From: Temperatibacter marinus
GTDB lineage: Bacteria > Pseudomonadota > Alphaproteobacteria > Sphingomonadales > Kordiimonadaceae
Direction: 5' to 3'
DNA length: 64,000 nt
NCBI RefSeq assembly: GCF_031598375.1
Contig: NZ_CP123872.1
Location: forward strand, 744,001-808,000
Within the stretch, counting starts at the first letter, position 1, and each line of letters opens with the position of its first letter. Of this stretch, positions 2,030 through 44,246 are shown one piece after another. The notes under the pieces were generated by a model. It did no database searches. It had not been told where the DNA came from and was given only the letters and a program-made list of their open reading frames with translations. The translations under genes were made by a program, and so were the position numbers.

Positions 2030-3376
2030 GTGACTGAAAAAAATAACTCATCGACATTTCGATTATTGAAAAGTCGACGCTTTCTCCCCCTATTTATCAC
2101 CCAATTCCTAGGGGCATTTAATGACAATTTATACAAATTGGCCATGTTGGCACTCATTGTTTATGTGCTGGCAACAGGCAGTTCATCAGAGGCAGCCCTT
2201 TTGTCTAACATTGCCGCAGGGCTTTTTATGCTCCCCTTTTTCCTCGCCAGTGCACTGGCAGGGCAACTCTCTGACAAATATGAAAAATCCACATTGATAA
2301 AATTCATTAAACTCTGGGAAATAGGTTTAATGATTATTGGGGCTTATGGATTTTATACTGGGAATATCGTGTTAATGATGATCATTCTCTTCGGCATGGG
2401 GCTTCAATCGACCTTCTTTGGACCCATAAAATATGCCATTTTACCACAACACCTTGAAAAAGATGAGCTTTTACCTGCAAATAGTTTAATGGAAGCCGGT
2501 GTATTTCTGGCAATTTTACTCGGCACGCTGTTCGGGGCCCCGCTTATCTTAGCTGAAAATGGGATAGTCCTCGCTGCTATGGGCACCATTAGTATTGCAG
2601 TGCTAGGCTTTATCACAGCCCTTTTCATTCCAAAGACGGCACGCGCCGCGCCTGACATTCGAATTAGGAAAAATATATTTGCCGAAACCCGCACGCAGTT
2701 CAGAGAAGCCAAAAGCAATCCGATCATCTTTTTGTCAATTATAGGAACCAGCTGGTTCTGGATGTTTGGCTCTGTATTTTTAGCGCAAATTACACCAATG
2801 GCTCGATCGCTTCTGTATTTGGACGAATATGGTATGACAGCCATTTTGGCCCTCTTCACAGTGGGAATCGGCATCGGCTCAATTTTATGCAACCGGATCC
2901 TAAAAGGTCAGATATCAGGCATATATCAACGAAAAAGCCTCGTGATCATTCTACTCTGTGGCATTTTTCTATATGGGACACTCGTTTGGTATAGCACTGC
3001 GGTTGAACAGCCTGTGGACGGAACATTAATCTCGGTTTGGGCCTTCATACAGAACCCTATCACATGGGTCATGGGCTTGGCCATTTTGGGCATGTCCGCT
3101 GCCGGGGGAATGTTTATAGTCCCTCTCTATGCCCGACTACAGCACCAGAGTGATCCTGATAAATGTTCGCGGACCATTGCATCCAATAACGTCATGAACT
3201 CTGTATTTATGGTTTTGGGGGCTGTCGCAGCTTTGCTTATACTAAAGCTTGGTTCTGTGCTAGATCTGCCCCTTGATGTGGCAGAAATTTTACTGATTGT
3301 AAGCCTTTTAAACTATCCAATGATCAAAATATTAAAACCTCTCGAGCAAGATGTCCCTCAATCGACATCACATTGA
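2030..3376 (+). CDS. MFS transporter, lysophospholipid transporter (LplT)-like
   Basis: A 448-residue membrane protein with about 12 hydrophobic segments. The N-terminal sequence FITQFLGAFNDNLYKLA is characteristic of the MFS branch containing LplT and the MFS halves of LplT-PlsC-acyl-ACP synthetase fusions, which flip lysophospholipids across the inner membrane for re-acylation. Here the transporter stands alone, with no acyltransferase domain or neighbour. Start is GTG with a GA-rich stretch (GAGGTGGAAAAGG) upstream. The next gene, a YhhN (lysoplasmalogenase-like) protein, is also lipid-related, so a shared role in lysolipid handling is plausible. The exact substrate is inference. Confidence 0.8.
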   Translation: MTEKNNSSTFRLLKSRRFLPLFITQFLGAFNDNLYKLAMLALIVYVLATGSSSEAALLSNIAAGLFMLPFFLASALAGQLSDKYEKSTLIKFIKLWEIGLMIIGAYGFYTGNIVLMMIILFGMGLQSTFFGPIKYAILPQHLEKDELLPANSLMEAGVFLAILLGTLFGAPLILAENGIVLAAMGTISIAVLGFITALFIPKTARAAPDIRIRKNIFAETRTQFREAKSNPIIFLSIIGTSWFWMFGSVFLAQITPMARSLLYLDEYGMTAILALFTVGIGIGSILCNRILKGQISGIYQRKSLVIILLCGIFLYGTLVWYSTAVEQPVDGTLISVWAFIQNPITWVMGLAILGMSAAGGMFIVPLYARLQHQSDPDKCSRTIASNNVMNSVFMVLGAVAALLILKLGSVLDLPLDVAEILLIVSLLNYPMIKILKPLEQDVPQSTSH

Positions 3377-3454
3377 GTCGCTAAATTTTTAGGGAGTCCT
3401 TGAAAAAATCATTTTCCCTTGCAATAGTAAACATTGGGCACAAAGAGGTAAGTT

Positions 3455-4171
3455 ATGACGCGGATTTTCACAAAGAAAAAACGACCGATTTTAGAGTTTT
3501 TCGGCAGTATTATTTTAATTTTATCCATTATTGCTGCTGTGGTTTATGAGCTTAAATCCTTCCCGGATACTCTCACATGGTCACTGGTGGCTAAGGGCTT
3601 ACCTGTGGCTCTTCTCGGTGTTTATGCCCTGTTTAATTTTCGCACCCTTGATCATGCAATCTTAGCCCTGGCTCTCTTTGCTTCCGCCGCAGGAGATATT
3701 GGCCTAGAGCTGCCTTTTGACAATAAACTCAGTTACGGCATAGCCGGCTTTTCGGTGGCGCATGTTTTTTATATGCTTCTTTTCTTGCGCAACAGACGAC
3801 ACCTTCAGGATCTTGCGAAAATTCGGTTGAATATCGCCTCTCTCGCTTGGGCCTTGACAACAATTGTTGCAATATTGCTCTATGACAGCTTAGGTGAAAT
3901 GCAATATTTAATCATCGGCTATATGGTAATTTTAACAGGCATGGTCTCATGTGCTCAGCTATCTAGATATCCTTTCATTCTTGTTGGCATAGGCTCTATG
4001 CTCTTTTTCATCTCAGACGCTTTCATTGCTGGACGCATGTTCCTAAGCCTCCCAGATTGGTCTAATACTGTCATTTGGCTGAGCTATTATTTGGCACAAT
4101 TCCTAATTACGATGGGAGTTTTAATTGCCCCTGATCAGGAAAAACGCTATCACATAAAGACCTTTACTTAA
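3455..4171 (+). CDS. YhhN family membrane protein (lysoplasmalogenase-like)
   Basis: A 238-residue protein with about eight transmembrane segments. It carries the conserved family polar positions: K in segment 2 (KGLPVALL), GDIGLEL, AHVFY, FFISDAFIA and the C-terminal YYLAQFLI. The family includes eukaryotic TMEM86 lysoplasmalogenases, which hydrolyse the vinyl-ether bond of lysoplasmalogen. Bacterial members are largely uncharacterised, so the enzymatic activity is inference from family. AGAGG lies about 6 nt before the ATG. It follows the LplT-like gene by 78 nt and precedes argB by 13 nt, so all three may be cotranscribed. Confidence 0.8.
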   Translation: MTRIFTKKKRPILEFFGSIILILSIIAAVVYELKSFPDTLTWSLVAKGLPVALLGVYALFNFRTLDHAILALALFASAAGDIGLELPFDNKLSYGIAGFSVAHVFYMLLFLRNRRHLQDLAKIRLNIASLAWALTTIVAILLYDSLGEMQYLIIGYMVILTGMVSCAQLSRYPFILVGIGSMLFFISDAFIAGRMFLSLPDWSNTVIWLSYYLAQFLITMGVLIAPDQEKRYHIKTFT

Positions 4172-4184
4172 TAAGATTTGAACT

Positions 4185-5069
4185 ATGAGTGTCATTGTGA
4201 ATACAGATCAGAAGAAACTGCAGAAAAAAGCAAAAATTCTCTGCGAAGCCCTGCCGTATATGAAAAAATATGCTGGGGAAACCTTTGTCATTAAATATGG
4301 CGGTAATGCAATGATTGACGATGAACTTTCCCGTCAATTTGCAGAAGATGTCGTTCTTCTCAAGCAAGTCGGAATTAACCCAATCGTTGTCCACGGCGGA
4401 GGACCTCAGATCGGCAAAATGCTAGACCGTCTTCAATTAGAGAGTCGATTTATTGACGGCTTAAGAGTGACCGACGAGCAAACGGTTGAAGTGGCTGAAA
4501 TGGTTCTCTGTGGGTCTATAAATAAATCCATTGTGGCTGATATCAATGCCGCTGGTGGCAAGGCTATTGGCCTGTCTGGTAAAGATAGTAATCTGGTCAT
4601 TGCAAAAAAACGAGAAAGTACTATTGATTTAGGCTTTGTCGGAGAACCAGAGGCCGTCAATCCTGACATTTTGAATTCAAGTGTCGAGGCTGGAATGATC
4701 CCTGTAATTGCACCTATCGCCGCAGGCAAAAACGGTGAAACTTTCAATATCAATGCAGATACAATGGCTGGCTGTATTGCGGGCGCGATCCAAGCAAGGC
4801 GTCTTTTCTTACTGACTGATGTTGAAGGCGTTCTCAATGAAGAGAAAGAACTGCTCACTGACCTTGTTGAATCAGAAGTAAAAACGCTGATCACTAATGG
4901 CACGATCGCAGGGGGCATGATTCCAAAGGTTACAACCTGTCTGGATGCCCTTAAAGGAGGCTCCAATGCAGCATCCATCATCGATGGACGCGTCATGCAT
5001 GCCATCCTTCTAGAGATTTTCACAGAACGCGGAGCAGGCACACTTATTCGGCTCACAGAAGACGATTAA
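4185..5069 (+). CDS. argB: Acetylglutamate kinase
   Basis: A 294-residue amino-acid kinase fold enzyme. It phosphorylates N-acetyl-L-glutamate with ATP in the second step of arginine biosynthesis. Visible motifs are the N-terminal nucleotide-binding KYGGNAM, substrate-loop HGGGPQIG, GLSGKD, the LLTDVEGVL segment and the GGMIPKV motif near the end. The N-terminal helix preceding the kinase core is typical of the hexameric, arginine-feedback-inhibited form, so feedback control is likely. The ribosome-binding site is weak. No other arg gene is in the window. It converges with the DUF2336 gene after 27 nt. Confidence 0.96.
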   Translation: MSVIVNTDQKKLQKKAKILCEALPYMKKYAGETFVIKYGGNAMIDDELSRQFAEDVVLLKQVGINPIVVHGGGPQIGKMLDRLQLESRFIDGLRVTDEQTVEVAEMVLCGSINKSIVADINAAGGKAIGLSGKDSNLVIAKKRESTIDLGFVGEPEAVNPDILNSSVEAGMIPVIAPIAAGKNGETFNINADTMAGCIAGAIQARRLFLLTDVEGVLNEEKELLTDLVESEVKTLITNGTIAGGMIPKVTTCLDALKGGSNAASIIDGRVMHAILLEIFTERGAGTLIRLTEDD

Positions 5070-25633: not shown

Positions 25634-26821
25634 TTAAAAGACAGCTTTTATTGCTTCTGCAATAAGATCAACATTACCTTTGTGAGCGCCTGCAATGTTA
25701 ATTCGACCAGAGCCAACAATATACACAGCATGTTCTTCTCTTAATCGGTTAATCTGATCTTTGCTTAAATCAAGGAAGGAAAACATGCCTTGATTTTCTG
25801 TGAGATACCCAAAGTCACCAGGAATGCCTGCCCCCGTTAAAGCCTGGGCCAACAGTTGGCGGTTTGTGTTTACAGTGCTGCAAATATCTTCAAGTTCGGA
25901 GACCCAGCTGTCTCTGAGAGTAGGTGTAGATAAAATTTTCTCAACAATGGCACCACCATGAGCTGGCGGCATAGACCAGATCCCTCGACCCACAACTTTC
26001 ACATGGGAAAGCACTGCATTGACATTAGTCTTATCAGTTATCACCGCTGCAAGTCCAACGCGGTCTCTATAAAGGCCGAAATTTTTACTGCAGGACAAGG
26101 CAAGAAACATCTGTGGTACAGCTTTAGCCATCGTCCGCATACCATACCCATCCGCTTCAAGAGATGTCCCTAAACCTTGATAGGCACTATCAATGAATGG
26201 AATCCAGCCATTTTTTGCGGCACTTTCTGCGAGCTGATCCCACTGAGCCTCAGATAGGTCTGCGCCTGTTGGATTATGACAACAGGCATGCAATAAAACA
26301 ATATCATCTGCTCCGAGCTTATTGAGTTGAGAAAGCATGGCATCAAAATTTACACCGTGCGTGGCTCTGTCAAAATAGGGATATGTTTCGATCTCAATGC
26401 CTACACCGCCAATCAAAGGAATATGATTAGCCCATGTTGGATCACTGACCCAAACTTTGGCTTTGGCATTAGAGCGTTTAATCATCTGAGCAATCATGTG
26501 AAGCGCCCCACATCCACCCGGTGTTAAGGTGGAAGCAACTCGACCTTCAGCTATCACGGGATGAGAAGCGCCAAGGGCTTCCGCTAGCAAAAGACTATTA
26601 TAGCCGTCTTGACCCGTCATGCCGATGTAGGCCTTCGTTGTCTCGGTTTCAACACGGTAAGCTTCCGCTTTTTTCACGGCCTCAAAAATTGGTGTTTCAC
26701 CCTTTTCGTTTTTGAAGACGCCGACAGATAAATCAACTTTATTGACGCGCTCATCTGCGCGAAAGGCCGCCGCTAGTCCTAAAATAGGATCCGTTGGCAA
26801 TTCTGTAAGATTATTAAACAT
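25634..26821 (-). CDS. Class I aminotransferase (aromatic amino acid / aspartate type)
   Basis: A 395-residue PLP enzyme of the AspC/TyrB type. PLP lysine is Lys246 in SCSKNFGLYRDR; HNPTGAD supplies the cofactor-binding Asn, IDSAYQG the Asp/Tyr pair, and GSGRINIAG the substrate-carboxylate Arg. It lies only 9 nt after the indolepyruvate oxidoreductase gene. That context favours transamination of Phe, Tyr or Trp to aryl-pyruvates, which the next enzyme oxidises, over a purely aspartate role. Substrate preference is therefore inference from context. Confidence 0.9.
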   Translation of the reverse strand: MFNNLTELPTDPILGLAAAFRADERVNKVDLSVGVFKNEKGETPIFEAVKKAEAYRVETETTKAYIGMTGQDGYNSLLLAEALGASHPVIAEGRVASTLTPGGCGALHMIAQMIKRSNAKAKVWVSDPTWANHIPLIGGVGIEIETYPYFDRATHGVNFDAMLSQLNKLGADDIVLLHACCHNPTGADLSEAQWDQLAESAAKNGWIPFIDSAYQGLGTSLEADGYGMRTMAKAVPQMFLALSCSKNFGLYRDRVGLAAVITDKTNVNAVLSHVKVVGRGIWSMPPAHGGAIVEKILSTPTLRDSWVSELEDICSTVNTNRQLLAQALTGAGIPGDFGYLTENQGMFSFLDLSKDQINRLREEHAVYIVGSGRINIAGAHKGNVDLIAEAIKAVF

Positions 26822-26830
26822 ATTCTTTCC

Positions 26831-29800
26831 CTATGCAGCTTTTTTTTGCTCATAAGAAGCTGCGATAAAAGCTTCAAGAAGCATTGGTTTTTTTTGTTCA
26901 AAGTCTTTTAACGCGGTTTCAAACACAGGTCCATAGCCTCTTACGTCTAAATAAGATTCAAGCAATAAAATTGCTTCAGACTGATTATTTTCGTTCAATT
27001 TTTCAGCCACAAGCCCCATAATCTCTGTCACATCTTGAAGGCATTGTCTTTGCAGCCGTCTCTCATGAGAATAACCAAACACATCCAGCGGGGTATTTCT
27101 CAAAAATTTGAATCGACGAATCACGCTTAATGTTGCTTTCATCCAGCCTCCAAATTTACGTTTCTTCGGTCTGCCACTGGCATCTTTCGCCCATCCAAAA
27201 ATAGGAGGAGCCATGTGATATTTTACAGAGAAATTTCCTTCAAATGTATTTCGAAGATCTTTTTCAAAAGAACCATCAGTATAAAGACGGGCCACTTCAT
27301 ATTCATCTTTTATGGCCATAGCTTTAAACAATGCTTTGGCCGCCACCTCAGAAACAAGCTTCTCATCGCTGATCGATTTTTCCGCCTGCATAAGCGGCTT
27401 AAGTGTTTCAGAGTAAAGAGTCGCATAGGCATCATTTTGATAGGCCGCAAGGAAAGCTTGATGATGATCTTTGAGAGCCTCAAAACTTCTGTCCATTTTT
27501 TCAACAGGGCGTGCATGTCCATTCACATAGTCAGGGTTTTCCGCTGCGAGACGGCCCCAGTTAAAGGCGGCTTTATTCTTAGAAACAGCGACACCGTTCA
27601 GCTCAACAGCCCGCATAATGGCGTCATAAGACAAAGGCACGAGACCAAGTTGCCAAGCATAACCAGCCATCAACATATTGGAGAAAACGCTATCACCCAT
27701 GAGTTGCTTAGCAAGATGCGTGGCGTGGATTACATTTAAATTTTCCTTGCCCACTGCATTGGCAAGTGTAATCGTTCTGAGAGACACATCCATATCTGCA
27801 TCACGGTTCATCACATAATCGCCTGTAGGAATTTCTTCATCATTCAAAGTGATCCGTGTGCTACCAGTCCCCAGTACTTTCATGGCAGCAGGGCCTGTGG
27901 CAACAACCATGTCACATGCAATCATGGCATCCGCTTGCCCCGTTTCTATCCGCACCTGATTTAGGCTGTCTGGGGAGGAAGAAAAACGAACAAAAGAAAG
28001 GACAGTTCCGCCTTTTTGGGCAAAGCCCATAAAGTCTAGGACGCTTGCCCCTTTTCCTTCAAGATGGCCTGCCATGGTCATAATCGCACCAATGGTAACA
28101 ACGCCGGTACCACCAACACCACCGACGAGCAAATCATATGATCCGTCGATCGCAGGAAGGGTCGGCAGGGGAAGGTTAGCTACAGAGATGTCAAAATCAT
28201 CAATTTTTGCCGCAGTGGGTTTTCTTAGCGCCCCACCTTCTACCGTAACAAAGCTTGGACAGAAACCATCCACGCAAGAGAAGTCCTTATTGCAATTATG
28301 CTGATCAATTTGACGCTTACGGCCATTCATGGTTTCTTTGGGCACAATTGACAAGCAGTTGGATTGCACAGAACAATCACCGCACCCTTCGCAAACACTG
28401 CTATTAATGAAAGCACGCTTTGCAGGATCTGGATAGGTTCCCCGTTTTCTGCGACGTCTTTTTTCTGCTGCACAGGTTTGATCGTAAATGATTACCGATA
28501 CACCTTCGATTTCTCTGTATTCACGTTGCAAGCGATCCAATTCATCGCGGTAGAGCACTCGCACACCATCAGGCAATGTGACTGAATTATAACGCTCAGG
28601 CTCATCGGATAAAATCGTAATAGGCTCAACACCCTCTGCCCGTACCTGGTGAGCAATCTGAGGCACTGAGATGGGCCCATCTACAGGTTGCCCCCCCGTC
28701 ATGGCAACAGCATCATTGAATAAAATCTTATACGTAATATTTGTCTCAGCTGCTTTGGCTTGACGGATCGCCATATAACCTGAGTGAAAATATGTTCCCT
28801 CACCAAGATTCTGGAAAATATGACCGTTGCCAGTAAATTTACTCCGGCCAACCCAGTTAATTCCTTCTCCGCCCATTTGGATCAAACTTTCCGTATCTCG
28901 ATCCATCCAGCTTGCCATAAAGTGACAGCCAATACCTGCAAGGGCTTTACTACCCTCGGGAACTTTCGTTGATCGATTGTGCGGACAGCCTGAGCAAAAA
29001 TAGGGCAATCGGGAAACATTGGTCACAGGATTTTCTCTTGTTTGTAATGTCTCAAGAGATTCCGCAACCTCAACCAAATCAAGCTTAAGAGTCTCTTTCA
29101 CTCTATGGGCAACTGCTTTTGCCACCATTTTGGGGCTTAATTCCCCAACCCATGGGAGTAATGACTGACCATGGCCATCTTCTTTACCATGTACGCGGGG
29201 TTGAGGGGCTGTTTTATTGGAGAAGCAATATTCTTTAATCTCGCTTTCAATGATGCCGCGTTTTTCCTCTACAACGAGGATTTCATCTTTGCCTTCCATG
29301 AAAGCAGTTAGGCCGTTCATCTCAAGTGGCCACGTCATACCTACTTTATATATATCAATGCCTACGTCGCGACATTTCTCTTCTGTCAAGCCAAGTAACC
29401 GCAGCGCTTCCATCAGGTCTAAATGCCCTTTTCCTGTTGTAACGATTCCGAAACGTGCTTTGCTATTATTATAAATACAGCGATCGATTGGATTAGCACG
29501 CACAAATGCTAAGACAGCTTCTTTTTTCACAACCATACGGTTTTCAATTTGTGGCCCTGGTAAGTCGGGCCAGCGATAGTGAAGCCCCATCTCTGGTACA
29601 TCATAATCAGGAGGGGTGATAAAAGTCGGCAACGCGCCAATTTCGATAGAAGCAGCCCCTTCGACAGTTTCGCTGATCGCCTTAAACCCAACCCACATGC
29701 CGGAAAACCTCGAGAGGGCATATCCATAAAGGCCAAATTCGATATATTCACTGATACTCGCAGGATTGAGCGTTGGCATAAACCAATCCATAAAGGCTAC

Positions 29801-30286
29801 ATCTGATTGATGAGCCATCGAAGACGATACACACCCATGGTCATCCCCTGCGACAACCAACACGCCGCCATTTTCACTCGACCCGTAGGCATTGCCATGT
29901 TTGAGGGCATCCCCCGCGCGATCAACTCCAGGGCCTTTTCCGTACCACATGGCATAGACCCCATCGACCGTTTTATCCGGGTCTGTTTCCACTTGCTGTG
30001 ATCCTAGGACAGCCGTGGCCGCCAAATCCTCATTTATGGCAGGTAAAAATTCAACGTCAGCTGCCTTGAGATGTTTCTTTGCTCGCCATAATTCCTGATC
30101 GACCGCGCCAAGAGGGGATCCTCGATAGCCAGAGACAAAACCTGCACTTTTGACATTGTCCCGCTTATCCATTGCCGATTGCATCAATAAAATGCGTACC
30201 AATGCTTGTGTGCCTGTTATGTATACTCGACCTTTTTCGCGGTCATATCGGTCTAAAAGTTCATATCCAGAATCAAGAGGGGCCAT
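26831..30286 (-). CDS. Indolepyruvate ferredoxin oxidoreductase (fused alpha/beta)
   Basis: An 1151-residue fused 2-oxoacid:ferredoxin oxidoreductase. N-terminal TPP-dependent domains include a CSGCPHNRSTKVPEG motif near residue 434; a ferredoxin-like [4Fe-4S] motif (CEGCGDCSVQSNC) is near 632; the gamma-type domain begins near 719 (YDLLVGGVGGTGVVT). It decarboxylates aryl-pyruvates such as indolepyruvate or phenylpyruvate to aryl-acetyl-CoA, reducing ferredoxin. Fused versions of about this length occur in many aerobic proteobacteria. The aminotransferase downstream and divergent Lrp regulator fit aromatic amino acid breakdown. Confidence 0.93.
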   Translation of the reverse strand: MAPLDSGYELLDRYDREKGRVYITGTQALVRILLMQSAMDKRDNVKSAGFVSGYRGSPLGAVDQELWRAKKHLKAADVEFLPAINEDLAATAVLGSQQVETDPDKTVDGVYAMWYGKGPGVDRAGDALKHGNAYGSSENGGVLVVAGDDHGCVSSSMAHQSDVAFMDWFMPTLNPASISEYIEFGLYGYALSRFSGMWVGFKAISETVEGAASIEIGALPTFITPPDYDVPEMGLHYRWPDLPGPQIENRMVVKKEAVLAFVRANPIDRCIYNNSKARFGIVTTGKGHLDLMEALRLLGLTEEKCRDVGIDIYKVGMTWPLEMNGLTAFMEGKDEILVVEEKRGIIESEIKEYCFSNKTAPQPRVHGKEDGHGQSLLPWVGELSPKMVAKAVAHRVKETLKLDLVEVAESLETLQTRENPVTNVSRLPYFCSGCPHNRSTKVPEGSKALAGIGCHFMASWMDRDTESLIQMGGEGINWVGRSKFTGNGHIFQNLGEGTYFHSGYMAIRQAKAAETNITYKILFNDAVAMTGGQPVDGPISVPQIAHQVRAEGVEPITILSDEPERYNSVTLPDGVRVLYRDELDRLQREYREIEGVSVIIYDQTCAAEKRRRRKRGTYPDPAKRAFINSSVCEGCGDCSVQSNCLSIVPKETMNGRKRQIDQHNCNKDFSCVDGFCPSFVTVEGGALRKPTAAKIDDFDISVANLPLPTLPAIDGSYDLLVGGVGGTGVVTIGAIMTMAGHLEGKGASVLDFMGFAQKGGTVLSFVRFSSSPDSLNQVRIETGQADAMIACDMVVATGPAAMKVLGTGSTRITLNDEEIPTGDYVMNRDADMDVSLRTITLANAVGKENLNVIHATHLAKQLMGDSVFSNMLMAGYAWQLGLVPLSYDAIMRAVELNGVAVSKNKAAFNWGRLAAENPDYVNGHARPVEKMDRSFEALKDHHQAFLAAYQNDAYATLYSETLKPLMQAEKSISDEKLVSEVAAKALFKAMAIKDEYEVARLYTDGSFEKDLRNTFEGNFSVKYHMAPPIFGWAKDASGRPKKRKFGGWMKATLSVIRRFKFLRNTPLDVFGYSHERRLQRQCLQDVTEIMGLVAEKLNENNQSEAILLLESYLDVRGYGPVFETALKDFEQKKPMLLEAFIAASYEQKKAA

Positions 30287-33585: not shown

Positions 33586-35079
33586 TTATTTTTCAGCACT
33601 AATCACCCAGGTAACATTCCCGGCGAGCGTTAAAGCCCCTTTTAAACCATTTTCACGGTTTTTAAAGGGTATTTGATATAAACCAAGAGGGGTAACCACT
33701 GCAAAGGTGTGCCCATTTTCATCGTGAGACAATCTCAATAACTTGAGCTGATCGGGCAGCGGTGCGCCCTTAGAGATGAAACGCGCCCTAAATTGCCCTG
33801 GCGTCTCAATCAAGCCAGTGCACCGTGCCCCCTCATCAACAATTGTCATCTGACCTTTGGTGAATTCTGCACCAAAATTGCCCCGATACTCATAAACACC
33901 GACAGGACAATCTTGAGGAAAGTTATAGTCTTCTTTCACAAATAAACGCATCGGCTCAACTAAGGTTTCACTGGTATGACGAGCGTCCAAATCTGCTCGG
34001 GCATTCGCAGCATAAGCAACATGAAGGCCATATCGGGGATAACTTAAATAAGCAGATGTCGATCCTATGGTCTTTCCGTCCATATGAAAGAAGAGGTCGT
34101 TATCACGTGTACGCGACAAGCGCCAAGCAAGAGCAGGGTCAAAGTCCAAATTCTGGCGCGCCTTGTCCGAAAAAGGCACCGCTTTCAACATTTTGATCCA
34201 TTCCACGGGATCTAAGATGAGTCCAGACCAATAACTGGCAAGTAATTTAACGACAGAGGCAGGTGTTCCATTAATTCCAGCTGCAGGCTTAACATAACTA
34301 AAGTCTCTTTCAGCTGCCACTTCTGCTGTTTCTTCAAACCGATTATAAAATTTAGTCTCGCTATCCGGCCTATTTCCAGCATTATCAAAGTGGAGATCGT
34401 TGATCAGCAAAGGTGATAAAATTGCTGCGTTCAAAAAAGAATCATATGACTGGCCTGTGACATTTTCTATAACAAGGCCCAACAAAACATAGCCATATGA
34501 AGAGTAGACATAGCGGGAGCCAGGGTTAGACAACAGAGGTCTCACAGAGAACTGTTTTAAAGCTTCTCTCAATGTTTTAATATGTTTTTGACCGCGATTA
34601 TAATCATTAAAATCAAAGTGAGTAATGCCTCCAGTATGGGACAGTAACTGTCTGATGGTAACTGCCCCTCTCTTTTGCGGAAACTCAGGGACATATTTGC
34701 GCACATCGGCATCCAGATCAACGCGTCCTTCGCTCACCAGCTTCATAATGGCACTGGCTGTAAAGAGAGTGCCGACTTCGCCTAAGCGAAACCGAGTGCT
34801 TGGCAAAACAGGTTTTTCACCGCTAATATCCGAGAGACCAAACCCTTTTTCGAGAAGAATATTTGATCCATAACCAATGGCTAGGCTTACCCCGGGTATC
34901 CCAGAGGCAGCATGAAATTCATTCATCAACCAAGTTATGTCTTCTTGCGTTTGCAACAGACGGGCATTGCGATCTACCTCTTGAGACAGAAGTGCATTTG
35001 TCCCCATAAGGGCCACAATGCCTACCGCCGTGAAAGTGGTGACAGCCTTTGTAAAAGTCTTGTGCAAATGTTTGATCAT
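33586..35079 (-). CDS. Class C beta-lactamase-fold protein lacking catalytic residues
   Basis: A 497-residue exported protein with an N-terminal hydrophobic signal (AVTTFTAVGIVALMGTNALL). It has the serine-hydrolase/penicillin-binding-protein fold: GVSLAIGYG, LLSHTGGI, PGSRYVYSSYGYVLLGLVIE. Where active members have Ser-x-x-Lys (GSxSK), this protein has Gly-Glu101-Val-Gly-Thr104, so both Ser and Lys are lost. The Tyr-x-Asn motif is YSS. It is probably a binding or regulatory pseudoenzyme. A C-terminal beta-rich region of about 120 residues follows. Start ATG at 35079 with GAGGG upstream. Confidence 0.8.
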   Translation of the reverse strand: MIKHLHKTFTKAVTTFTAVGIVALMGTNALLSQEVDRNARLLQTQEDITWLMNEFHAASGIPGVSLAIGYGSNILLEKGFGLSDISGEKPVLPSTRFRLGEVGTLFTASAIMKLVSEGRVDLDADVRKYVPEFPQKRGAVTIRQLLSHTGGITHFDFNDYNRGQKHIKTLREALKQFSVRPLLSNPGSRYVYSSYGYVLLGLVIENVTGQSYDSFLNAAILSPLLINDLHFDNAGNRPDSETKFYNRFEETAEVAAERDFSYVKPAAGINGTPASVVKLLASYWSGLILDPVEWIKMLKAVPFSDKARQNLDFDPALAWRLSRTRDNDLFFHMDGKTIGSTSAYLSYPRYGLHVAYAANARADLDARHTSETLVEPMRLFVKEDYNFPQDCPVGVYEYRGNFGAEFTKGQMTIVDEGARCTGLIETPGQFRARFISKGAPLPDQLKLLRLSHDENGHTFAVVTPLGLYQIPFKNRENGLKGALTLAGNVTWVISAEK

Positions 35080-35126
35080 AATTTTCGCCCTCAACGCATG
35101 CTAAATTTACCCCAGCATGATTGCAA

Positions 35127-35777: not shown

Positions 35778-37013
35778 TTAAGTCACTGCATTTTTTACAG
35801 TATATTTGTCCTGCTTGTAAGACTGAGTGCTCATGATATCTTTCAAGATCATAACTGCTTGATAAATATCTTCATAGCCCACATACAGCGGAGTCACCCC
35901 AAATCGAAGATGGTCTGGGGCTCTAAAATCGCCAATTACACCGCGATCAATCAATGCTTGAATGATGGCATATCCGTCCGGGTGTCGATAGGTTATATGA
36001 GACCCTCTTGTTGAGCGATTTCTAGGGGTAACCGCGGTAAAACCATAGCCTGTAAGCTGATCGTCCATTAGCCTAGAAAACAGATCTGTTAAATCCAATG
36101 ATTTTTCTCGAAGAGTCTTTAAATCAACGTCTTCCCAAAGGGATAGTGCTTCATCCAAGAGAGCCATCGCTGACACGACTGGCGTACCAACTTGCATGAC
36201 TCTAATATCAGGCGCCCCTTCAAAATCATCGACAAAGTCAAAGGGCCTCTTATGTGAAAACCACCCAGACAGGGGCTGCTTCACAGAGCCTAAATGTCTC
36301 TTATTGATATAGGCAAAAGCAGGTGCTCCTGGACCACCGTTTAAATATTTATACCCGCACCCAAGAGCAAAATCGACCTCACAATCATCCAAAGATAAAG
36401 GCACTGCGCCGGTCGAATGAGACAAGTCCCAAACCATCAAGGCCCCTTTTTCATGGGCTGCGGCTGTCATAGCTTTCATATCCCACATTTCTGCCGAAAT
36501 ATAATGAACATGGGTTAAAAGAACACAAGCTGTCTCTTCATCAATTGCATCAAGAAGTTCCTCACGGGGTTTAATGACTACTTCCAAGTCTCCCTGCATG
36601 AAGGCCTCAAGACCATCCAGCATATATAAATCCGTCGGAAAATTACCAGGTTCAGACAGGATTTTTCTCCGCCCCTTATTCAAGGCGCATGCTGCAGCGA
36701 CACATTTAAAAACATTCAATGATGTACTATCTGTGGCAATCACACTTTCTGGTACAGCGCCAATCAAGGGAGCAATTTTTTGACCAACCGTCAGAGGAAG
36801 CGTAACCCAATTCGCATCATTCCAACTTTTTACAAGCCCCGTCGCCCACTCTTGCGACAACACTGTTTGCATCCGCGGCACTACAGATTTCGGTTGCGCG
36901 CCGAGAGAATTTCCGTCCAGATAAATCACACCTTCCGGCAAATTAAAAAGAGCTTTTTTGGAGGCCAAAGAGTCTGATTGGTCGCACTTTCGGCATTCTT
37001 CGAGTGTTATCAT
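35778..37013 (-). CDS. kynU: Kynureninase
   Basis: A 411-residue PLP enzyme that cleaves L-kynurenine to anthranilate and L-alanine. VIYLDGNSLG opens the fold, DLSHSTGAVPL and GCGYKYLNGGPGAP (PLP lysine) form the cofactor site, and DHLRFGVTPLY is near the end. It is the last gene of kynA-kynB-kynU; its start overlaps the kynB stop by 4 nt (ATGA). No anthranilate-degrading genes are in the window, so the product may feed tryptophan recycling or be degraded elsewhere. Confidence 0.96.
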   Translation of the reverse strand: MITLEECRKCDQSDSLASKKALFNLPEGVIYLDGNSLGAQPKSVVPRMQTVLSQEWATGLVKSWNDANWVTLPLTVGQKIAPLIGAVPESVIATDSTSLNVFKCVAAACALNKGRRKILSEPGNFPTDLYMLDGLEAFMQGDLEVVIKPREELLDAIDEETACVLLTHVHYISAEMWDMKAMTAAAHEKGALMVWDLSHSTGAVPLSLDDCEVDFALGCGYKYLNGGPGAPAFAYINKRHLGSVKQPLSGWFSHKRPFDFVDDFEGAPDIRVMQVGTPVVSAMALLDEALSLWEDVDLKTLREKSLDLTDLFSRLMDDQLTGYGFTAVTPRNRSTRGSHITYRHPDGYAIIQALIDRGVIGDFRAPDHLRFGVTPLYVGYEDIYQAVMILKDIMSTQSYKQDKYTVKNAVT

Positions 37014-37651
37014 AAGTTTTCATCCAGTGGGCGGAGGATGGCTCTGACAGGACTACCGTCACATCCTTCAAGTTTTAGCGGAAGGGCAATTAATTCATAA
37101 TAGCCCGGATTAACAGCTTCTAATTTTAAGCTCTCTAGAATTGATATTTTATGGGCAGCGATTGCTTGATGCGACGGCATCTTCTTACTCTCTTGAGGAT
37201 CCATAGACGGGGTATCTATCCCAATCAGTACACACCCCCTCGTAGCCAAAAATTCAACAGTATCAGGGTGCAGGGCAGTAAACCCAAAAGGCCATTTGTC
37301 TGACGAGTATTCTGCCGTCGTCTGAATAAGTACTCGCTCAATAGTGTCTGGAATTTGATCTTTTATATGCTCAGGAGTTACCAAGTCACCGCAGTGAAGG
37401 GCATCAACAACCAAAGCCTTTCCAATATAGGGTTCTAAAGGCATTTCTGAAGAAGACACACCTTTGGAATCATAGTGGAAACAACTATCCATGTGAGTGC
37501 CTGTATGCGGTGATAAAGTTAACTTACTCACATTCACAGGGCAATCATCTGAAATCCTCATGACCCACTCCATTGAAAAGTCAGAATCTCCTGGCCAGAC
37601 CGGCATCCCGGGCTTGAGAGTCATGGTGATATCAATAATAGGTTTAGACAT
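37010..37651 (-). CDS. kynB: Kynurenine formamidase (arylformamidase)
   Basis: A 213-residue cyclase-family metal hydrolase that deformylates N-formyl-kynurenine. The N-terminal IIDITMTLKPGMPVWPGD, metal-binding HTGTHMDSCFHYD and GIDTPSMDP are diagnostic. I chose the ATG at 37651, with AAAGGA upstream, giving the normal family length. Longer readings run into kynA without similarity. It lies 16 nt after kynA and overlaps kynU by 4 nt. Confidence 0.95.
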   Translation of the reverse strand: MSKPIIDITMTLKPGMPVWPGDSDFSMEWVMRISDDCPVNVSKLTLSPHTGTHMDSCFHYDSKGVSSSEMPLEPYIGKALVVDALHCGDLVTPEHIKDQIPDTIERVLIQTTAEYSSDKWPFGFTALHPDTVEFLATRGCVLIGIDTPSMDPQESKKMPSHQAIAAHKISILESLKLEAVNPGYYELIALPLKLEGCDGSPVRAILRPLDENL

Positions 37652-37667
37652 CCAAAATCCTTTGGCT

Positions 37668-38522
37668 TTATATTTTTGTTCGTGCTGTCCAGAGCTCTGG
37701 GAAAAAGCGAATATCCAGGGCTTTGACAAGATAAGATACGCCCCCAGTACCCCCTGTTCCCTGTTTATATCCAATAATTCTCTCCACCGTTTTCATGTGA
37801 GAGAAGCGCCAGCTGTGAAACTGATGTTCCAAATCTACAAGCTTTTCTGCAAGTTCGTATAGTTCCCATTCTTTTTCAGGATTACGGTAGATCTGCAGCC
37901 AGGCATTTTCCACAGATTCATCAGCCACATAAGGCTGAGAAAAGTCGCGCTGTAACTGTGTCTTTGAAATGGGAAAGCCCCGTTTCGCAAGCAACGCAAT
38001 AACCAAATCATAAAAACTAGGTGCATGTAAGGTCGCAGATAAAGCATCATACCGTTTTGGATTGTCTTTATGAGCATTAATCATCGCAGCATTTTTATTA
38101 CCTAAAGCGAATTCTATGGTGCGATATTGATACGATTGAAAACCAGAAGATTGTCCTAATTGATCTCGGAATTTCGCATAGTCTGCGGGCGTTAAGGTCG
38201 AAAGAACATCCCAGCTCTGCTCGAGTTGAGCTTGAATGCGCGCAATTCTAGAAAGCATCTTAAAAGCCGGGCCGAGGGTATTCTTTTTTACGCATTCCAT
38301 AGCCGCCATTAATTCATGGATACAACATTTCATCCAAAGTTCAGCCGATTGATGAATGACAATAAATAACATTTCATCATGTTCGTCCGAGAGCGGCTCT
38401 TGACATTCCAATAATTTTCCAAGTTTCAGATAGCCCCCATATGAAATATCTTGAGACCAATGGATATCTGTCTCTTCAGAGATATCGATACTGGTTTTCG
38501 TAAGATCTTTTTGATCTGTCAT
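37668..38522 (-). CDS. kynA: Tryptophan 2,3-dioxygenase
   Basis: A 284-residue haem dioxygenase that opens the indole ring of tryptophan with O2 to give N-formyl-kynurenine. The family sequence DEMLFIVIHQSAELWMKC near the N-terminus, SGFQSYQYRTIEF in the centre, the haem-ligand region HSWRFSHMKTVERIIGYK and GTGGTGGVSYL near the C-terminus are all present. Start ATG at 38522 has GGGAG 7 nt upstream. First gene of the kynABU unit. Confidence 0.96.
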   Translation of the reverse strand: MTDQKDLTKTSIDISEETDIHWSQDISYGGYLKLGKLLECQEPLSDEHDEMLFIVIHQSAELWMKCCIHELMAAMECVKKNTLGPAFKMLSRIARIQAQLEQSWDVLSTLTPADYAKFRDQLGQSSGFQSYQYRTIEFALGNKNAAMINAHKDNPKRYDALSATLHAPSFYDLVIALLAKRGFPISKTQLQRDFSQPYVADESVENAWLQIYRNPEKEWELYELAEKLVDLEHQFHSWRFSHMKTVERIIGYKQGTGGTGGVSYLVKALDIRFFPELWTARTKI

Positions 38523-38596
38523 CTGCATGCTCCCACGGCCTTTAAGTTTCATGTGAAACTATTTATCATGGAGACTATAGAAAGTCCAATCCATTC

Positions 38597-39300: not shown

Positions 39301-40431
39301 ATGTTAGAAGGGATTTGGCATCCATCGCTCTTAACATTTTTAGGGGTCTCTGCTGTACCTATCTATCTCCTAATTGCACGAAAAAATCTTGGAGGGGAAG
39401 ACAAAGGTTATATGGCTTTGCTCTTTGGAGGCCTGATCATCTCTTTAGCCAGCCTTATAGATTATCTTGAAGAGTTACCTGTCCTTAAACCCTTGGTCTT
39501 AGATCTCAACAATGGCCTCGCATTAAATCAAACATTTCTACCCTTTGCCTACGCGGCAGGCACGATATTGATTGCCTATGGCTTGGCCAATTGGTTTCCT
39601 GGGATCATTCGCCTAGCGAAAGAAATAAGAAGCCGAGAAAAGAAGGAAGATGAGTTAAAAGCGTTAGCAAAAGAATTAGAAGGAAAAGCTCTAGAGGCCA
39701 ATCAATCTAACAGCGCCAAAAGTGAATTCTTGGCCACCATGTCCCATGAATTGAGAACCCCTCTAAATGCAGTGATTGGCTATGCACAAATGTTAAAACT
39801 GGGAATTGTTCCTATGGACAGCATAAAGGCACGGGAATATCTGGACCATATTGAGAGCAGCGGTAGTCATCTGCTCTCAATCTTGAATGATATTTTGGAC
39901 CTTTCTAAGCTAGAAGCGGGTCGCTTTGAGGTCCATAATGCCCCCTTTGATCTAGACCAAGTTATTCAAGACAGTCTTGCTTTTTGCCAGCCTCTGGCTC
40001 TGGCGAAACAATTACCAATTCAATATCAAAAAACAGAAGTTAAATTAAAAAGTGATGAGCGCATTCTCAAACAAATCGTCATCAACATTTTATCGAACGC
40101 CGTTAAGTTCACGCCCGCATTAGGGTCTATAGATCTCTTTGTGACGCCGCACGAAAACACGCATATTTTACATATTACAGATACAGGCTTAGGGATGAGC
40201 CCTGAAGAATTAGACAAAGCCGTGCAGCCTTTCCAGCAGTTAGAGAGCAGTTTTTCACGTTCACAAGAAGGAACTGGCCTTGGACTTGCCTTAGTCATGC
40301 GACTTAGTCAATTGATAGACGTCACTATTGAGGTAAATTCAGTGAAGAAGAAGGGAACAGAAGTTTTGGTGAAATTGCCCGTCTCTTCAATTCTTCAGGA
40401 CGAAAAGAGTCTTGGAGACGCCGATAATTAA
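39301..40431 (+). CDS. Membrane sensor histidine kinase
   Basis: A 376-residue kinase. Three to four N-terminal transmembrane segments fill residues 8-100 with almost no periplasmic sensor. A coiled coil (about 105-140) leads to HisKA with His149 in ATMSHELRTPLNAVIGY and an HATPase_c domain (NILSNAVKFT, ITDTGLGMS, GTGLGLALV). No receiver domain or adjacent response regulator is present; orphan regulators at 23341 and 50593 are possible but unproven partners. slyX follows after about 60 nt. Confidence 0.88.
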   Translation: MLEGIWHPSLLTFLGVSAVPIYLLIARKNLGGEDKGYMALLFGGLIISLASLIDYLEELPVLKPLVLDLNNGLALNQTFLPFAYAAGTILIAYGLANWFPGIIRLAKEIRSREKKEDELKALAKELEGKALEANQSNSAKSEFLATMSHELRTPLNAVIGYAQMLKLGIVPMDSIKAREYLDHIESSGSHLLSILNDILDLSKLEAGRFEVHNAPFDLDQVIQDSLAFCQPLALAKQLPIQYQKTEVKLKSDERILKQIVINILSNAVKFTPALGSIDLFVTPHENTHILHITDTGLGMSPEELDKAVQPFQQLESSFSRSQEGTGLGLALVMRLSQLIDVTIEVNSVKKKGTEVLVKLPVSSILQDEKSLGDADN

Positions 40432-40493: not shown

Positions 40494-40721
40494 ATGACCA
40501 TGACTGAAAAAGCAACCATTGAAGACCGTGTAATTGAACTGGAAACCCAGATGGCCTTTCAGCAAGAAACCATCGATCATTTGAACGACATGGTCACAAG
40601 GCAGTGGGATCTCATAGAGAATCAGAAAAAAATGATCAAGCAACTGGATGATCAACTCTATGCTCTAGAGCAACAATCCTCTGGGGGAGCGATCCAACAC
40701 CAAGTGCCGCCGCATTACTGA
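40494..40721 (+). CDS. slyX: SlyX family protein
   Basis: A 75-residue, highly charged protein that is almost entirely one coiled coil (ATIEDRVIELETQMAFQQET, heptads continuing to DDQLYALE) and ends in PPHY, the typical SlyX C-terminus. The family has no settled biochemical role. AAAGGT precedes the ATG at 40494; an ATG at 40500 is an alternative. It overlaps the convergent dioxygenase/ATP-grasp gene by 7 nt. Confidence 0.85.
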   Translation: MTMTEKATIEDRVIELETQMAFQQETIDHLNDMVTRQWDLIENQKKMIKQLDDQLYALEQQSSGGAIQHQVPPHY

Positions 40722-42820
40722 GAAGAAACGCGTTGGCTTATCATCCGATCAAAGGCCTCTGACACTTTATCAAGATAAGGCCGAGTGTATGGAAAGTTAC
40801 CTGCATGATCAAAATTATGCCGCATGGACGCATTGGCTTCAAAAATAAACAATCGTCCGTCGGGGAGCTTGGTGAAATCTACGCCAAAAAAGTCCAATTT
40901 AAGCTGATCTCTTATGGCGTGTAACGCCGTTAAACCCTCCCCAAGAAATTCATGGAAATTCTCTAGATAATTTTGTTCCCATTCTTGTAATCTCTTCTGC
41001 TTGTCCATCACACTATAGCGATCACCAGAATGTATATTCCACTGATCATGGTGCAAACCCGCAACAGGATAAAAGGTGCCGTCGATACAGAATGTTCTAT
41101 TCTTATTATACAGTCCCTCATCCGTAACCGTTTCTCTATATTCTATGGCATAATAATCGCCCCAATACCTGTGACTTTCAAAATATGACTCGACGTCCTC
41201 TCTAGTTCTGGCAAGGGTCACAAATTTTCCTGTATGGGTCACGGAAGGTCTTAGGATAATGGGATAGTTCAGGGCCGCTTCATCAATTTTTTTCATGACC
41301 GCAAGGAGAGAAAGCCCTTCAACAGTGAAGAGCTCTGTTCTTGGAAAGACAAGACCTGGTATGGCACCGAGGGACTGATAATTTTTCACCCTTGTTGTTT
41401 CCAAAACATTCCGAGGCGGATTTATAATGCGGCGACATCCACTGTTCTCAACAAAAGTTTCAAGGGCAGTCAATCCTTCTTTCATGCGCTCGGCACAAGC
41501 GACTGTATTGACAAAAATGTCTACGTCGGGCGTTGCCAACGAGGCCCAGTCCGTTTGATCATAATGATTTAATTTTGTTATATTGAACTCATCTGAGCGC
41601 AGGAAATTTCGTAAAGAAAAATGCCCTTGCATAAGCGACGGAGAATAGCGACCAGCTGACTTTTTATATATATATTTGCCGTCCTTAAAACCTCTGATTG
41701 TCATCACAGAGATACGCTCTTTCTTCATCTCGGTTTCAGCCACTAGAGGACGTCGTTGGCAGGCCTTTTTCTTCGCTCTCTCAGCCTTCTCTTTTTCACC
41801 GAGGCTTCCATAAATCGCGGCCAAATGAAAAGGCCGCGAACTATCAGAGGCGAAAGCATCAAAATAGGATTCTATCAATGCCGCTGCAGTTTTTAAATCG
41901 TCTTGTCTCAATGCTTTTTTAATCTGTTTGTCTACAGCACTCATATCGACGGGTATAGACTTTCGGATGGCATACCATAATTTTTTTATCATCTTGAGGG
42001 GCCACCATGACAACCGAAGATGTGACAGGGTTGGATGAATAGAAATGCGTCCTCGATAGATAAGTCGATTACTTTTATCACTAAGAGCCGAGCGCGCATG
42101 CAAGACTTTATGGTTGTTGATCAAGATCATTTCGCCTGCACCCATGGCATCTTGAAGATGAGCATCTTCCTGCCCCAACAAGCCATCGATTTTATCCAGT
42201 AAAGGACCGACTTTCTCCTGCAAAGCATTCTCTTTTGATAGGGCGATATCCAGTTGACTTCTATAATAGCGGATTGAGGGCCCTTCTTCATCATCGTATA
42301 AGATAGGCAGCACTGTCCCTTCTCTGAAAGGAAAGAGATCTTCACGCAGTAATGCCTGTTCAGGTTCAGTGAGATTATCTAACAGATGATCAATAGGCAT
42401 TAAGAAACTGACCCCACCAGAAGGATCCGGAACAATACACTGAAAACCCATAATATTATGGGGGTTCATGTCATAACTAGAGTCTGTGTGCATTGAGATC
42501 TTTTGATCTGTACGGCTGTACCGTGTCACTGACGATTTTTGGCGACTTTCTTCAGGTTTTATTTCTACTCTTGTCATTGATACCTTCGCAGAAGACGACG
42601 GATCAGCAATTGTTTTAAGCGCTTTTAGTAGATGAAATATTTCTGATTTATATTCATCAGTGAAATGCCCAATGAGTCCTGAGATTTTAAGACAATAGGG
42701 ATAGGTGCTCAAGGCATTCATGACAGTCCGCAGCAAAGACCGCGGCGGCCTACTGCTCAACAGTGCTGTCACCTCTTTTGGAGAGAGTGTAATCTCAGGA
42801 ATTGTGTTTTGTTTTTTCAT
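40715..42820 (-). CDS. Fused TauD-like dioxygenase / ATP-grasp protein
   Basis: A 701-residue cytoplasmic protein with two enzyme-like parts. Residues about 40-262 resemble TauD/TfdA Fe(II)/2-oxoglutarate dioxygenases: His111-Thr-Asp113 (HTDSSY), PSGGVSF, distal His241 (NNHKVLHARSAL) and the following Arg-rich NRLIYRGRI. Residues 292-360 form TPR-like helices. Residues about 370-695 resemble an ATP-grasp ligase: YPIILRPSVTHTG (nucleotide lysine position is Arg524), YYAIEYRE, LDFFGVDF and FIFEANAS (metal-binding Glu661, Asn663). The combination suggests oxidation and ligation in small-molecule or peptide modification. The substrate is unknown, and no biosynthetic cluster surrounds it. Confidence 0.75.
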   Translation of the reverse strand: MKKQNTIPEITLSPKEVTALLSSRPPRSLLRTVMNALSTYPYCLKISGLIGHFTDEYKSEIFHLLKALKTIADPSSSAKVSMTRVEIKPEESRQKSSVTRYSRTDQKISMHTDSSYDMNPHNIMGFQCIVPDPSGGVSFLMPIDHLLDNLTEPEQALLREDLFPFREGTVLPILYDDEEGPSIRYYRSQLDIALSKENALQEKVGPLLDKIDGLLGQEDAHLQDAMGAGEMILINNHKVLHARSALSDKSNRLIYRGRISIHPTLSHLRLSWWPLKMIKKLWYAIRKSIPVDMSAVDKQIKKALRQDDLKTAAALIESYFDAFASDSSRPFHLAAIYGSLGEKEKAERAKKKACQRRPLVAETEMKKERISVMTIRGFKDGKYIYKKSAGRYSPSLMQGHFSLRNFLRSDEFNITKLNHYDQTDWASLATPDVDIFVNTVACAERMKEGLTALETFVENSGCRRIINPPRNVLETTRVKNYQSLGAIPGLVFPRTELFTVEGLSLLAVMKKIDEAALNYPIILRPSVTHTGKFVTLARTREDVESYFESHRYWGDYYAIEYRETVTDEGLYNKNRTFCIDGTFYPVAGLHHDQWNIHSGDRYSVMDKQKRLQEWEQNYLENFHEFLGEGLTALHAIRDQLKLDFFGVDFTKLPDGRLFIFEANASMRHNFDHAGNFPYTRPYLDKVSEAFDRMISQRVSSQ

Positions 42821-42941
42821 GCCATGATCTCTTTAATTGAAGTTTTACACATTTCCATACCCCATGCAATTGACGATTATCTGGTCTTGACAGAGCCCCC
42901 CTATCCCTTGTCTTATGAACATGAGCCTAGAGGAGACATCC

Positions 42942-44246
42942 ATGAAACATATCGTCGGCATTCTGATCCTTTCCAGCATTATGAGTATTCAAGCGCATGC
43001 CCAAAAATCAACCACCTATCCTAAGGTCAAGTCAATGCAAGAGCGGGCTGCCCTCGAGGACGCATGGTTAGAAAAGCGTTTTGAGACTGTCATTCCGAAA
43101 CTGATGCGGGAGCGCGGGGTCGATATGTGGCTTATGATTGCTCGTGAATATAACGAAGATCCTGTCGTGAAAACAATGTTGCCTGCAACATGGCTCAGTG
43201 CCCGCAGGCGCACCATCCTAATTTTCCATGACACCGGCAATACTGTGAAAAGATATGCGGTAAGTCGCTATGCCGTCGGTTCCTTTTTTGAGGCTGTATG
43301 GAACCCAGAAAAAGACCCTGATCAATGGCATCGTCTTAATGAATTTGTCACAGAATTAAATCCTAAAAAAATTGCGATCAACACATCGAATATTTATGCA
43401 CTTGCAAGTGGCCTTACTGCGAGCCAACATGCTGGTCTTATGCGGGCACTACATCCAAACTTAAAAGCAAAGATTGTCACTGACCCTGCTCTAGCCATTG
43501 GATGGCTCGAAGAACGCATTCCCGAAGAAATGGCCCTGTATCCAGAGATTGTCCAACTCGCCCACGCCATAATAAAAGAAGGATTTTCAAATAAAGTTAT
43601 TGTTCCGGAGCAATCGTCCGTCGACGATGTGCGTTGGTGGTACAGGGATAAGATTAGGCAAATGGGTGTGGTAGCTTGGTTCCATCCCAGTGTAAGCATT
43701 CAACGCCGTGATGGTCTGGTCAAAGACAAGATTATACGTCGAGGTGACCTTCTTCATGTGGATTTTGGCATTACATATATGGGTCTGAACACAGATACAC
43801 AGCAACATGCCTATGTGCTGAATGAAAATGAAACGGCTGTCCCAAAAGGAATACAGCAAGCCTTCAAAGTTGGGAATCGACTTCAGGATATTCTAACGAA
43901 TAACTACAAAACAGGTTTGAGCGGCGATCAAGTCCTCGCCAAAAGCAGAGCCGATGCCATTAAAGAAGGGATCGTTCCAAGCATCTATACACATCCCATC
44001 GGCTATCATGGTCATGGGGCCGGTGCCACCATTGGCATGTGGGATTCACAGAATGGTGTCAAAGGTCGCGGTCTCTACCCTATAAGGGCCAATACTGCTT
44101 GGTCCATAGAGCTCAATGCTACAGTGTCAATTCGTGAATGGGACAATCAAAAAATTCGCATCATGCTCGAAGAAGATGCATATTTTGATGGCACATCGGT
44201 TCGATATATAAGCGGCCGACAAGAAAAGATCCACGTGATCAACTAA
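42942..44246 (+). CDS. Exported M24 family metallopeptidase (Xaa-Pro aminopeptidase-like)
   Basis: A 434-residue protein with a signal peptide (IVGILILSSIMSIQAHAQ) and the creatinase/aminopeptidase P two-domain layout. Metal ligands are visible: first Asp in HVDFGITYMGLNTD and second Asp there, His in HPIGYHGHGAG, Glu in SIELNAT and Glu in IMLEEDAYF. It probably removes N-terminal residues before proline in periplasmic peptides, complementing the S9 peptidase. AGGAG precedes the ATG at 42942. Confidence 0.88.
   Translation: MKHIVGILILSSIMSIQAHAQKSTTYPKVKSMQERAALEDAWLEKRFETVIPKLMRERGVDMWLMIAREYNEDPVVKTMLPATWLSARRRTILIFHDTGNTVKRYAVSRYAVGSFFEAVWNPEKDPDQWHRLNEFVTELNPKKIAINTSNIYALASGLTASQHAGLMRALHPNLKAKIVTDPALAIGWLEERIPEEMALYPEIVQLAHAIIKEGFSNKVIVPEQSSVDDVRWWYRDKIRQMGVVAWFHPSVSIQRRDGLVKDKIIRRGDLLHVDFGITYMGLNTDTQQHAYVLNENETAVPKGIQQAFKVGNRLQDILTNNYKTGLSGDQVLAKSRADAIKEGIVPSIYTHPIGYHGHGAGATIGMWDSQNGVKGRGLYPIRANTAWSIELNATVSIREWDNQKIRIMLEEDAYFDGTSVRYISGRQEKIHVIN

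Follow-up and report, generated by a model that had tools for sequence, protein, structure and literature searches.

The question raised by this locus is what reaction is carried out by a single protein that joins a predicted dioxygenase to an ATP-grasp enzyme, and on which substrate it acts. In the window (the whole stretch of DNA that was analysed, 64,000 nucleotides of Temperatibacter marinus), the frame at 40715-42820 is single and open, begins with ATG and lies on the minus strand, and the genome carries one copy of it. A preliminary description had claimed that this protein of 701 residues fuses a TauD-like dioxygenase with an ATP-grasp enzyme. The open reading frame bore this out, and both folds were backed by profiles and by a structure model. 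Furthermore, the full architecture was found again in several genera of two phyla; thus, the fusion is neither a chance event nor a misassembly. The dioxygenase/ATP-grasp architecture is certain and uncommon, and the folds of both halves are predicted with good support. The features of the gene are as follows.

40715..42820, minus strand: complete gene, 701 amino acids, with dioxygenase, TPR-like helices and ATP-grasp (open reading frame, translation, full-length relatives)
42035..42820, minus strand: predicted TauD/TfdA-type Fe(II)/2-oxoglutarate dioxygenase domain, about residues 1-262 (Pfam TauD, Foldseek, profiles)
42482..42490, minus strand: predicted HxD iron ligands H111 and D113 (position, conservation)
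42053..42100, minus strand: predicted distal iron ligand H241 and candidate 2-oxoglutarate arginines R252 and R256 (invariance)
41753..41998, minus strand: TPR-like linker of five helices, residues 275-356 (AlphaFold2 secondary structure; TPR_19 in a relative)
40718..41743, minus strand: predicted RimK/LysX-like ATP-grasp ligase domain, residues 360-701 (profiles, Foldseek)
41000..41041, minus strand: family motif WN[VI]HSGDRYSVMDK, residues 594-607 (conserved in the sets of 4 and 16 sequences)
40832..40879, minus strand: candidate ATP-grasp metal ligands D648, E661 and N663, D-x12-E-x-N (invariance)

In the N-terminal half, Pfam TauD (PF02668) matched residues 91-256 above its cut-off (E = 2.7e-12, 47.6 bits versus 27). 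Profile matches were also found to TtnM, GBBH and TmpA, and Foldseek placed this half near KDO1, KDO5, VioC, OrfP, AsnO and TtnM (E to 3.6e-11). Residue conservation was checked in four full-length sequences, the window protein among them, and then in 16. The numbering proposed earlier for the two metal sites proved exact: H111, D113 and H241 of the dioxygenase and D648, E661 and N663 of the ATP-grasp domain were all invariant in the four sequences. In the 16, H241, D648, E661 and N663 remained invariant, and H111 and D113 departed from this only in a single row, which comes from a truncated contig. In addition, R252 and R256 are invariant in the relatives, and the HxD...H facial triad is thereby accompanied by a candidate arginine for 2-oxoglutarate; R252 stands at H+11 from H241, as the arginine does in TauD. 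The N-terminal half has the TauD fold and a predicted oxidation activity dependent on Fe(II) and 2-oxoglutarate. It shares the fold, the HxD...H site and the distal arginine with the clavaminate-synthase-like branch of TauD/TfdA enzymes (KDO1, VioC, AsnO, TtnM). However, the identity to them is low (10-18% by structure), and the dioxygenase of the window is fused to an ATP-grasp domain.

KDO1, KDO5, VioC and OrfP are hydroxylases of free amino acids, and together with AsnO they are the nearest folds. This likeness to enzymes for free or carrier-bound small molecules counts against a protein substrate. It would fit, as would the profiles TtnM, GBBH and TmpA, an enzyme that hydroxylates a free amino acid, whereupon the ATP-grasp domain would couple it to an amino acid or acid and yield a dipeptide-like metabolite. 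In dapdiamide-type pathways, a separate ATP-grasp ligase and 2-oxoglutarate dioxygenase act on amino-acid substrates within a biosynthetic cluster. The pair of predicted chemistries is the same, but the window protein is a single chain and has no such cluster. We regard a small-molecule product as unlikely, since neither a biosynthetic cluster nor a transporter or carrier is found repeatedly beside the fusion, and the TPR part and the recurrent giant exported proteins described below would be left unexplained.

The C-terminal half was harder to recognise: whereas TauD scored above its cut-off, the ATP-grasp profiles fell below theirs. In single-sequence searches RimK (PF08443) reached only E = 0.19, below the cut-off. 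The curated model rimK_fam (TIGR00768) matched the window protein with E = 2.7e-7 (30.2 bits for the whole protein and 33.5 bits for the domain, against a cut-off of 143.4), and among curated models it matched the ATP-grasp domain most often (in 9 of 10 members). The LysX and CofF equivalogs gave 15-18 bits against curated cut-offs of 275-300, and no significant sequence relative of this half was found in the PDB. Meanwhile, Foldseek put LysX/ArgX at the top and also returned D-Ala ligases (Ddl), with E of about 1e-9 to 1e-10 (4.6e-10 for LysX). The spacing D648-x12-E661-x-N663 is the same as in D-Ala-D-Ala ligase. These results support a predicted ATP-grasp fold for the C-terminal half. The domain has the fold, the D..E.N metal residues and a weak rimK_fam score in common with RimK/LysX/ArgX; however, it lies far below the curated cut-offs, has its own motif (WNxHSGDRYxxM) and carries a TPR-like part and a dioxygenase. 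The longer motif WN[VI]HSGDRYSVMDK served as the search pattern for finding relatives.

The AlphaFold2 model rests on 16 aligned sequences, of which only one is not full length, and together with Foldseek it showed both a dioxygenase and an ATP-grasp fold. Its mean pLDDT was 79.3 and its pTM 0.55; thus, the relative placement of the domains is uncertain. The TPR-like helices of the preliminary description appeared as five helices in this model; however, the window protein has no Pfam TPR match, and TPR_19 was matched in a relative (E = 1e-7).

LysX and ArgX work with a protein carrier, and a protein carboxylate receives Glu or aminoadipate from RimK or LysX/ArgX. By analogy, a hydroxy amino acid might be made first and then ligated to a C-terminus or to a Glu/Asp side chain of a protein. 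The LysX/ArgX folds and the rimK_fam matches agree with such a transfer, but the window protein falls well short of the curated rimK_fam cut-off, and none of the neighbours was recognised as a C-terminal Glu-type target; we consider the transfer quite improbable. At another locus (L114:8127-10778, minus strand), a protein of 884 amino acids fuses a PLP-dependent decarboxylase (PF00282) to a distantly related ATP-grasp domain, which points to a past exchange of amino-acid-altering partner domains on this ATP-grasp family. A decarboxylase would suit an amine-supplying partner in the transfer, and as another amino-acid-altering partner it would equally suit a small-molecule enzyme.

Full-length relatives of the fusion share about 31-39% identity. 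They occur in Kordiimonadales (G020, G027 and G028), in Thalassotalea and its relatives, in G454, an alphaproteobacterium in which it is present twice, and among the cyanobacteria in Mastigocoleus, Xenococcaceae, Oculatellaceae, Leptolyngbyaceae and Nostocaceae; in Cyanothece and Calothrix the fusion is partial. Among the 293 genomes sampled from one cyanobacterial order, 6 carry it, and in a sample of 398 genomes of the window's phylum the only full-length match was in the window's own genome. The fusion is rare but real. In two alphaproteobacteria (G006 and G486), the dioxygenase and the TPR-ATP-grasp protein are separate genes, adjacent or overlapping. In one metagenome-assembled genome, the fusion gene reads as two overlapping frames of 591 and 414 amino acids (L038:7777-10780), perhaps through a sequencing error.

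As regards a single fusion event, a tree of the ATP-grasp domain (61 rows) placed the fused and split proteins in one clade (98/90), but the fused group by itself was weakly supported (87/47). TPR-ATP-grasp proteins without a dioxygenase fell outside this clade. Among them, those of the same taxonomic family as the window (L007-L016) have TPR and the same ATP-grasp domain and formed the sister clade; unlike the window protein they lack the dioxygenase, and an aminotransferase stands beside the two loci scanned. This topology fits one recruitment of the dioxygenase, followed by fusion and then by transfer between phyla. A phage origin of the fusion was rejected, as no phage match was found, and plasmid matches were partial, to one half or the other only. 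At a further locus (L112:1791-6250, G546), two TPR-ATP-grasp genes stand in tandem and a third TPR gene continues the row; there is no dioxygenase.

The neighbourhood of the gene in the window offers no partner. It is flanked by two genes:

39301-40431, strand opposite to the fusion: histidine kinase gene
42915-44246, divergent from the fusion: M24-peptidase-like gene

Thus, the fusion gene of the window is monocistronic. Nothing related was found near it in the window, where the genes are those of kynurenine catabolism, glutamate synthase, amino-acid functions and regulators, and no tandem repeats lie near it. Three other segments of the window were recorded: an ordinary kynurenine pathway segment in which tryptophan 2,3-dioxygenase and kynureninase share a strand (35778-38552); a class C beta-lactamase/penicillin-binding-protein-like serine hydrolase (33586-35094), for which all listed curated scores are below cut-off; and an aminotransferase beside a 1151-amino-acid protein with POR and DUF6537 that resembles indolepyruvate oxidoreductase (25634-30286).

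The earlier claim that the gene stands outside any recognisable cluster therefore holds for the window gene but not for the family, since a survey of the relatives showed recurrent secretion and giant-surface-protein genes. For instance, G486 (L111) has on the same strand an RTX/cadherin/FG-GAP protein of >1,500 amino acids, then the dioxygenase, then the TPR-ATP-grasp gene, with a gap of about 150 nucleotides and an overlap of 10 nucleotides, apparently an operon. In G454 (L109), a type I ABC transporter, HlyD and the fusion follow one another on the same strand, again apparently as an operon. In G006, a two-partner-secretion (TPS) exoprotein and a ShlB transporter are divergent from the split pair. 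The cyanobacterial fusions are flanked by RTX proteins, TPS exoproteins and ShlB (TpsB) transporters; the RTX neighbours at L034 and L033 carry C-type lectin domains. At L040, two FG-GAP proteins lie 0.8 to 5 kb from the fusion. No secretion neighbours were seen among the genes scanned at the loci of Kordiimonadales (G020, G027, G028) and Thalassotalea, which speaks for a small-molecule enzyme and against an exported protein as substrate.

A link of the fusion to exported repeat proteins is suggestive; it comes from few lineages, in whose genomes such genes abound, and has yet to take in the window copy. Some adjacency of fusion, RTX and TPS genes is expected by chance because RTX and TPS genes are frequent, and the cyanobacterial loci, being a few related lineages, count against the exported-protein reading. 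So does the genome of the window, which lacks the TPS domain and whose RTX genes are distant from the fusion; the family in general is rich in RTX genes, and the four stretches of RTX protein read in this genome contained nothing but the usual 9-residue RTX repeats. The presence of RTX was rejected as a discriminating marker (26 of 30 relatives carry it), and TPS was rejected as a universal partner, since it is missing in the window genome, G020, G027 and G028. In gammaproteobacteria, a conserved set convergent with the fusion encodes HprK_rel_A, NTP_transf_5, a 95-amino-acid protein and a TAT-signal-like Asp-rich protein (L026:12104-15164, with equivalents in L027, L028 and L037); it was dismissed as a partner peculiar to the fusion, given that 54 of 60 genomes related to that of the window carry HprK_rel_A.

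In the cyanobacteria a more concrete candidate was found. RTX proteins beside the fusion (Mastigocoleus, Xenococcaceae) contain 4-6 tandem units of 18 residues with the consensus WWAQNNEGGNSSWQELYE. Such neighbours occur at six cyanobacterial loci, five of them distinct (L034 and L035 match):

L034:12921-18200, minus strand, RTX protein with Trp/Asn-rich repeat (Mastigocoleus; its fusion is at L034:9923-12181)
L033:13445-17248, RTX protein with Trp/Asn-rich repeat
L038:10793-15700, RTX protein with Trp/Asn-rich repeat
L041:12680-17017, RTX protein with Trp/Asn-rich repeat
L042:13301-17605, RTX protein with Trp/Asn-rich repeat

On one side of the array is the RTX part, on the other a region in which an HExxH motif was read by eye. 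All 40 of the 40 units have W1 and N6, whereas W13, S11, Q14 and E15 are nearly invariant, and the units differ from each other by synonymous changes. The repeat was found in 6 of the 293 genomes mentioned above and coincided with the fusion in 5 (Fisher p about 2e-9, a value that ignores the kinship of the genomes). Against this stand one genome with the repeat and no detected fusion (G145), one with the fusion and no repeat (G063), and the absence of the repeat from the genome of the window. As a general partner the repeat was rejected, since neither the window genome nor Proteobacteria nor other cyanobacteria showed it. Because it is missing from the window genome and most other fusion carriers, it is a possible substrate in one lineage only, where the array is a concrete candidate. 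At L042, a group II intron reverse transcriptase/maturase lies about 5 kb from the fusion (3154-5007).

The preliminary description expected an undescribed modification reaction. This was too strong, since paired chemistry of a 2-oxoglutarate oxygenase and an ATP-grasp enzyme on a repeat peptide has been published: in the corallotide system (2026), CorB (ATP-grasp, TIGR04187) and CorC (2-oxoglutarate oxygenase, PF13640), separate genes with a dedicated precursor, jointly modify a repeat peptide (PMC13097080). The proposed likeness of the fusion would lie in ATP-grasp bond formation plus 2-oxoglutarate hydroxylation on a repeat-containing polypeptide. However, the window protein matches neither family: TIGR04187, the graspetide synthetase model, was unmatched by it (E ≤ 1) and by 10 members (E ≤ 0.01), and PF13640 gave no match in the profile searches here. 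A graspetide-like enzyme, which would form intramolecular ester or amide cross-links within the repeats while the dioxygenase hydroxylates, would be a special form of the reading preferred below. The corallotide precedent with repeats (PMC13097080) and the near-invariant Ser11 and Glu15 of the 18-residue unit point towards it, but besides the missing TIGR04187 match no short precursor gene was recognised, and the repeat lies inside proteins of 1,200-1,760 amino acids in cyanobacteria only. We regard it as highly unlikely. The preliminary description was aware of no characterised homologue, and none was found in the literature or in the PDB sequence comparison of the ATP-grasp half; no literature was found on a dioxygenase/ATP-grasp fusion, or on ATP-grasp with RTX/TPS.

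Our preferred reading, to which we give a probability of about 0.4, is that the protein is a bifunctional tailoring enzyme whose likeliest substrate is an exported repeat-rich surface protein, modified before secretion. We favour it because both active sites are conserved in every full-length relative, because the ATP-grasp domain is nearest in fold to LysX/ArgX, because secretion or giant-protein genes lie near the genes of G486, G454, G006, L040 and the cyanobacterial fusions, and because repeat and fusion overlap in five genomes with W1 and N6 invariant. The N-terminal dioxygenase would hydroxylate an unactivated carbon in an amino-acid side chain. The ATP-grasp domain would turn a carboxylate into an acyl phosphate and bond it to an amine or hydroxyl, giving an amide or ester; the dioxygenase step might come before or after this acylation. 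The TPR-like part may dock or hold the polypeptide, most likely an exported repeat-rich surface protein of RTX, FG-GAP, cadherin or two-partner-secretion type. The modification would take place in the cytoplasm ahead of secretion, like HlyC-type activation or corallotide maturation. We infer both catalytic activities, their action on one substrate, the exported protein as that substrate and the residues modified. The window copy may do the same as its relatives, though its own neighbourhood shows no partner. The broader proposal, that a single-chain hydroxylase-ligase pre-modifies the tandem repeats of giant secreted RTX/TPS proteins and is conserved across Proteobacteria and cyanobacteria, is doubtful; no earlier description of such a modification in RTX/TPS export systems was found in the literature.

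If the link to exported proteins is true, an oxidation-plus-ligation modification would join lysine acylation and glycosylation on adhesins and giant secreted proteins. In addition, the family would then provide a compact enzyme that puts hydroxylated cross-links or extra residues into repeat sequences in two steps, with the cyanobacterial 18-residue array as a concrete candidate substrate.
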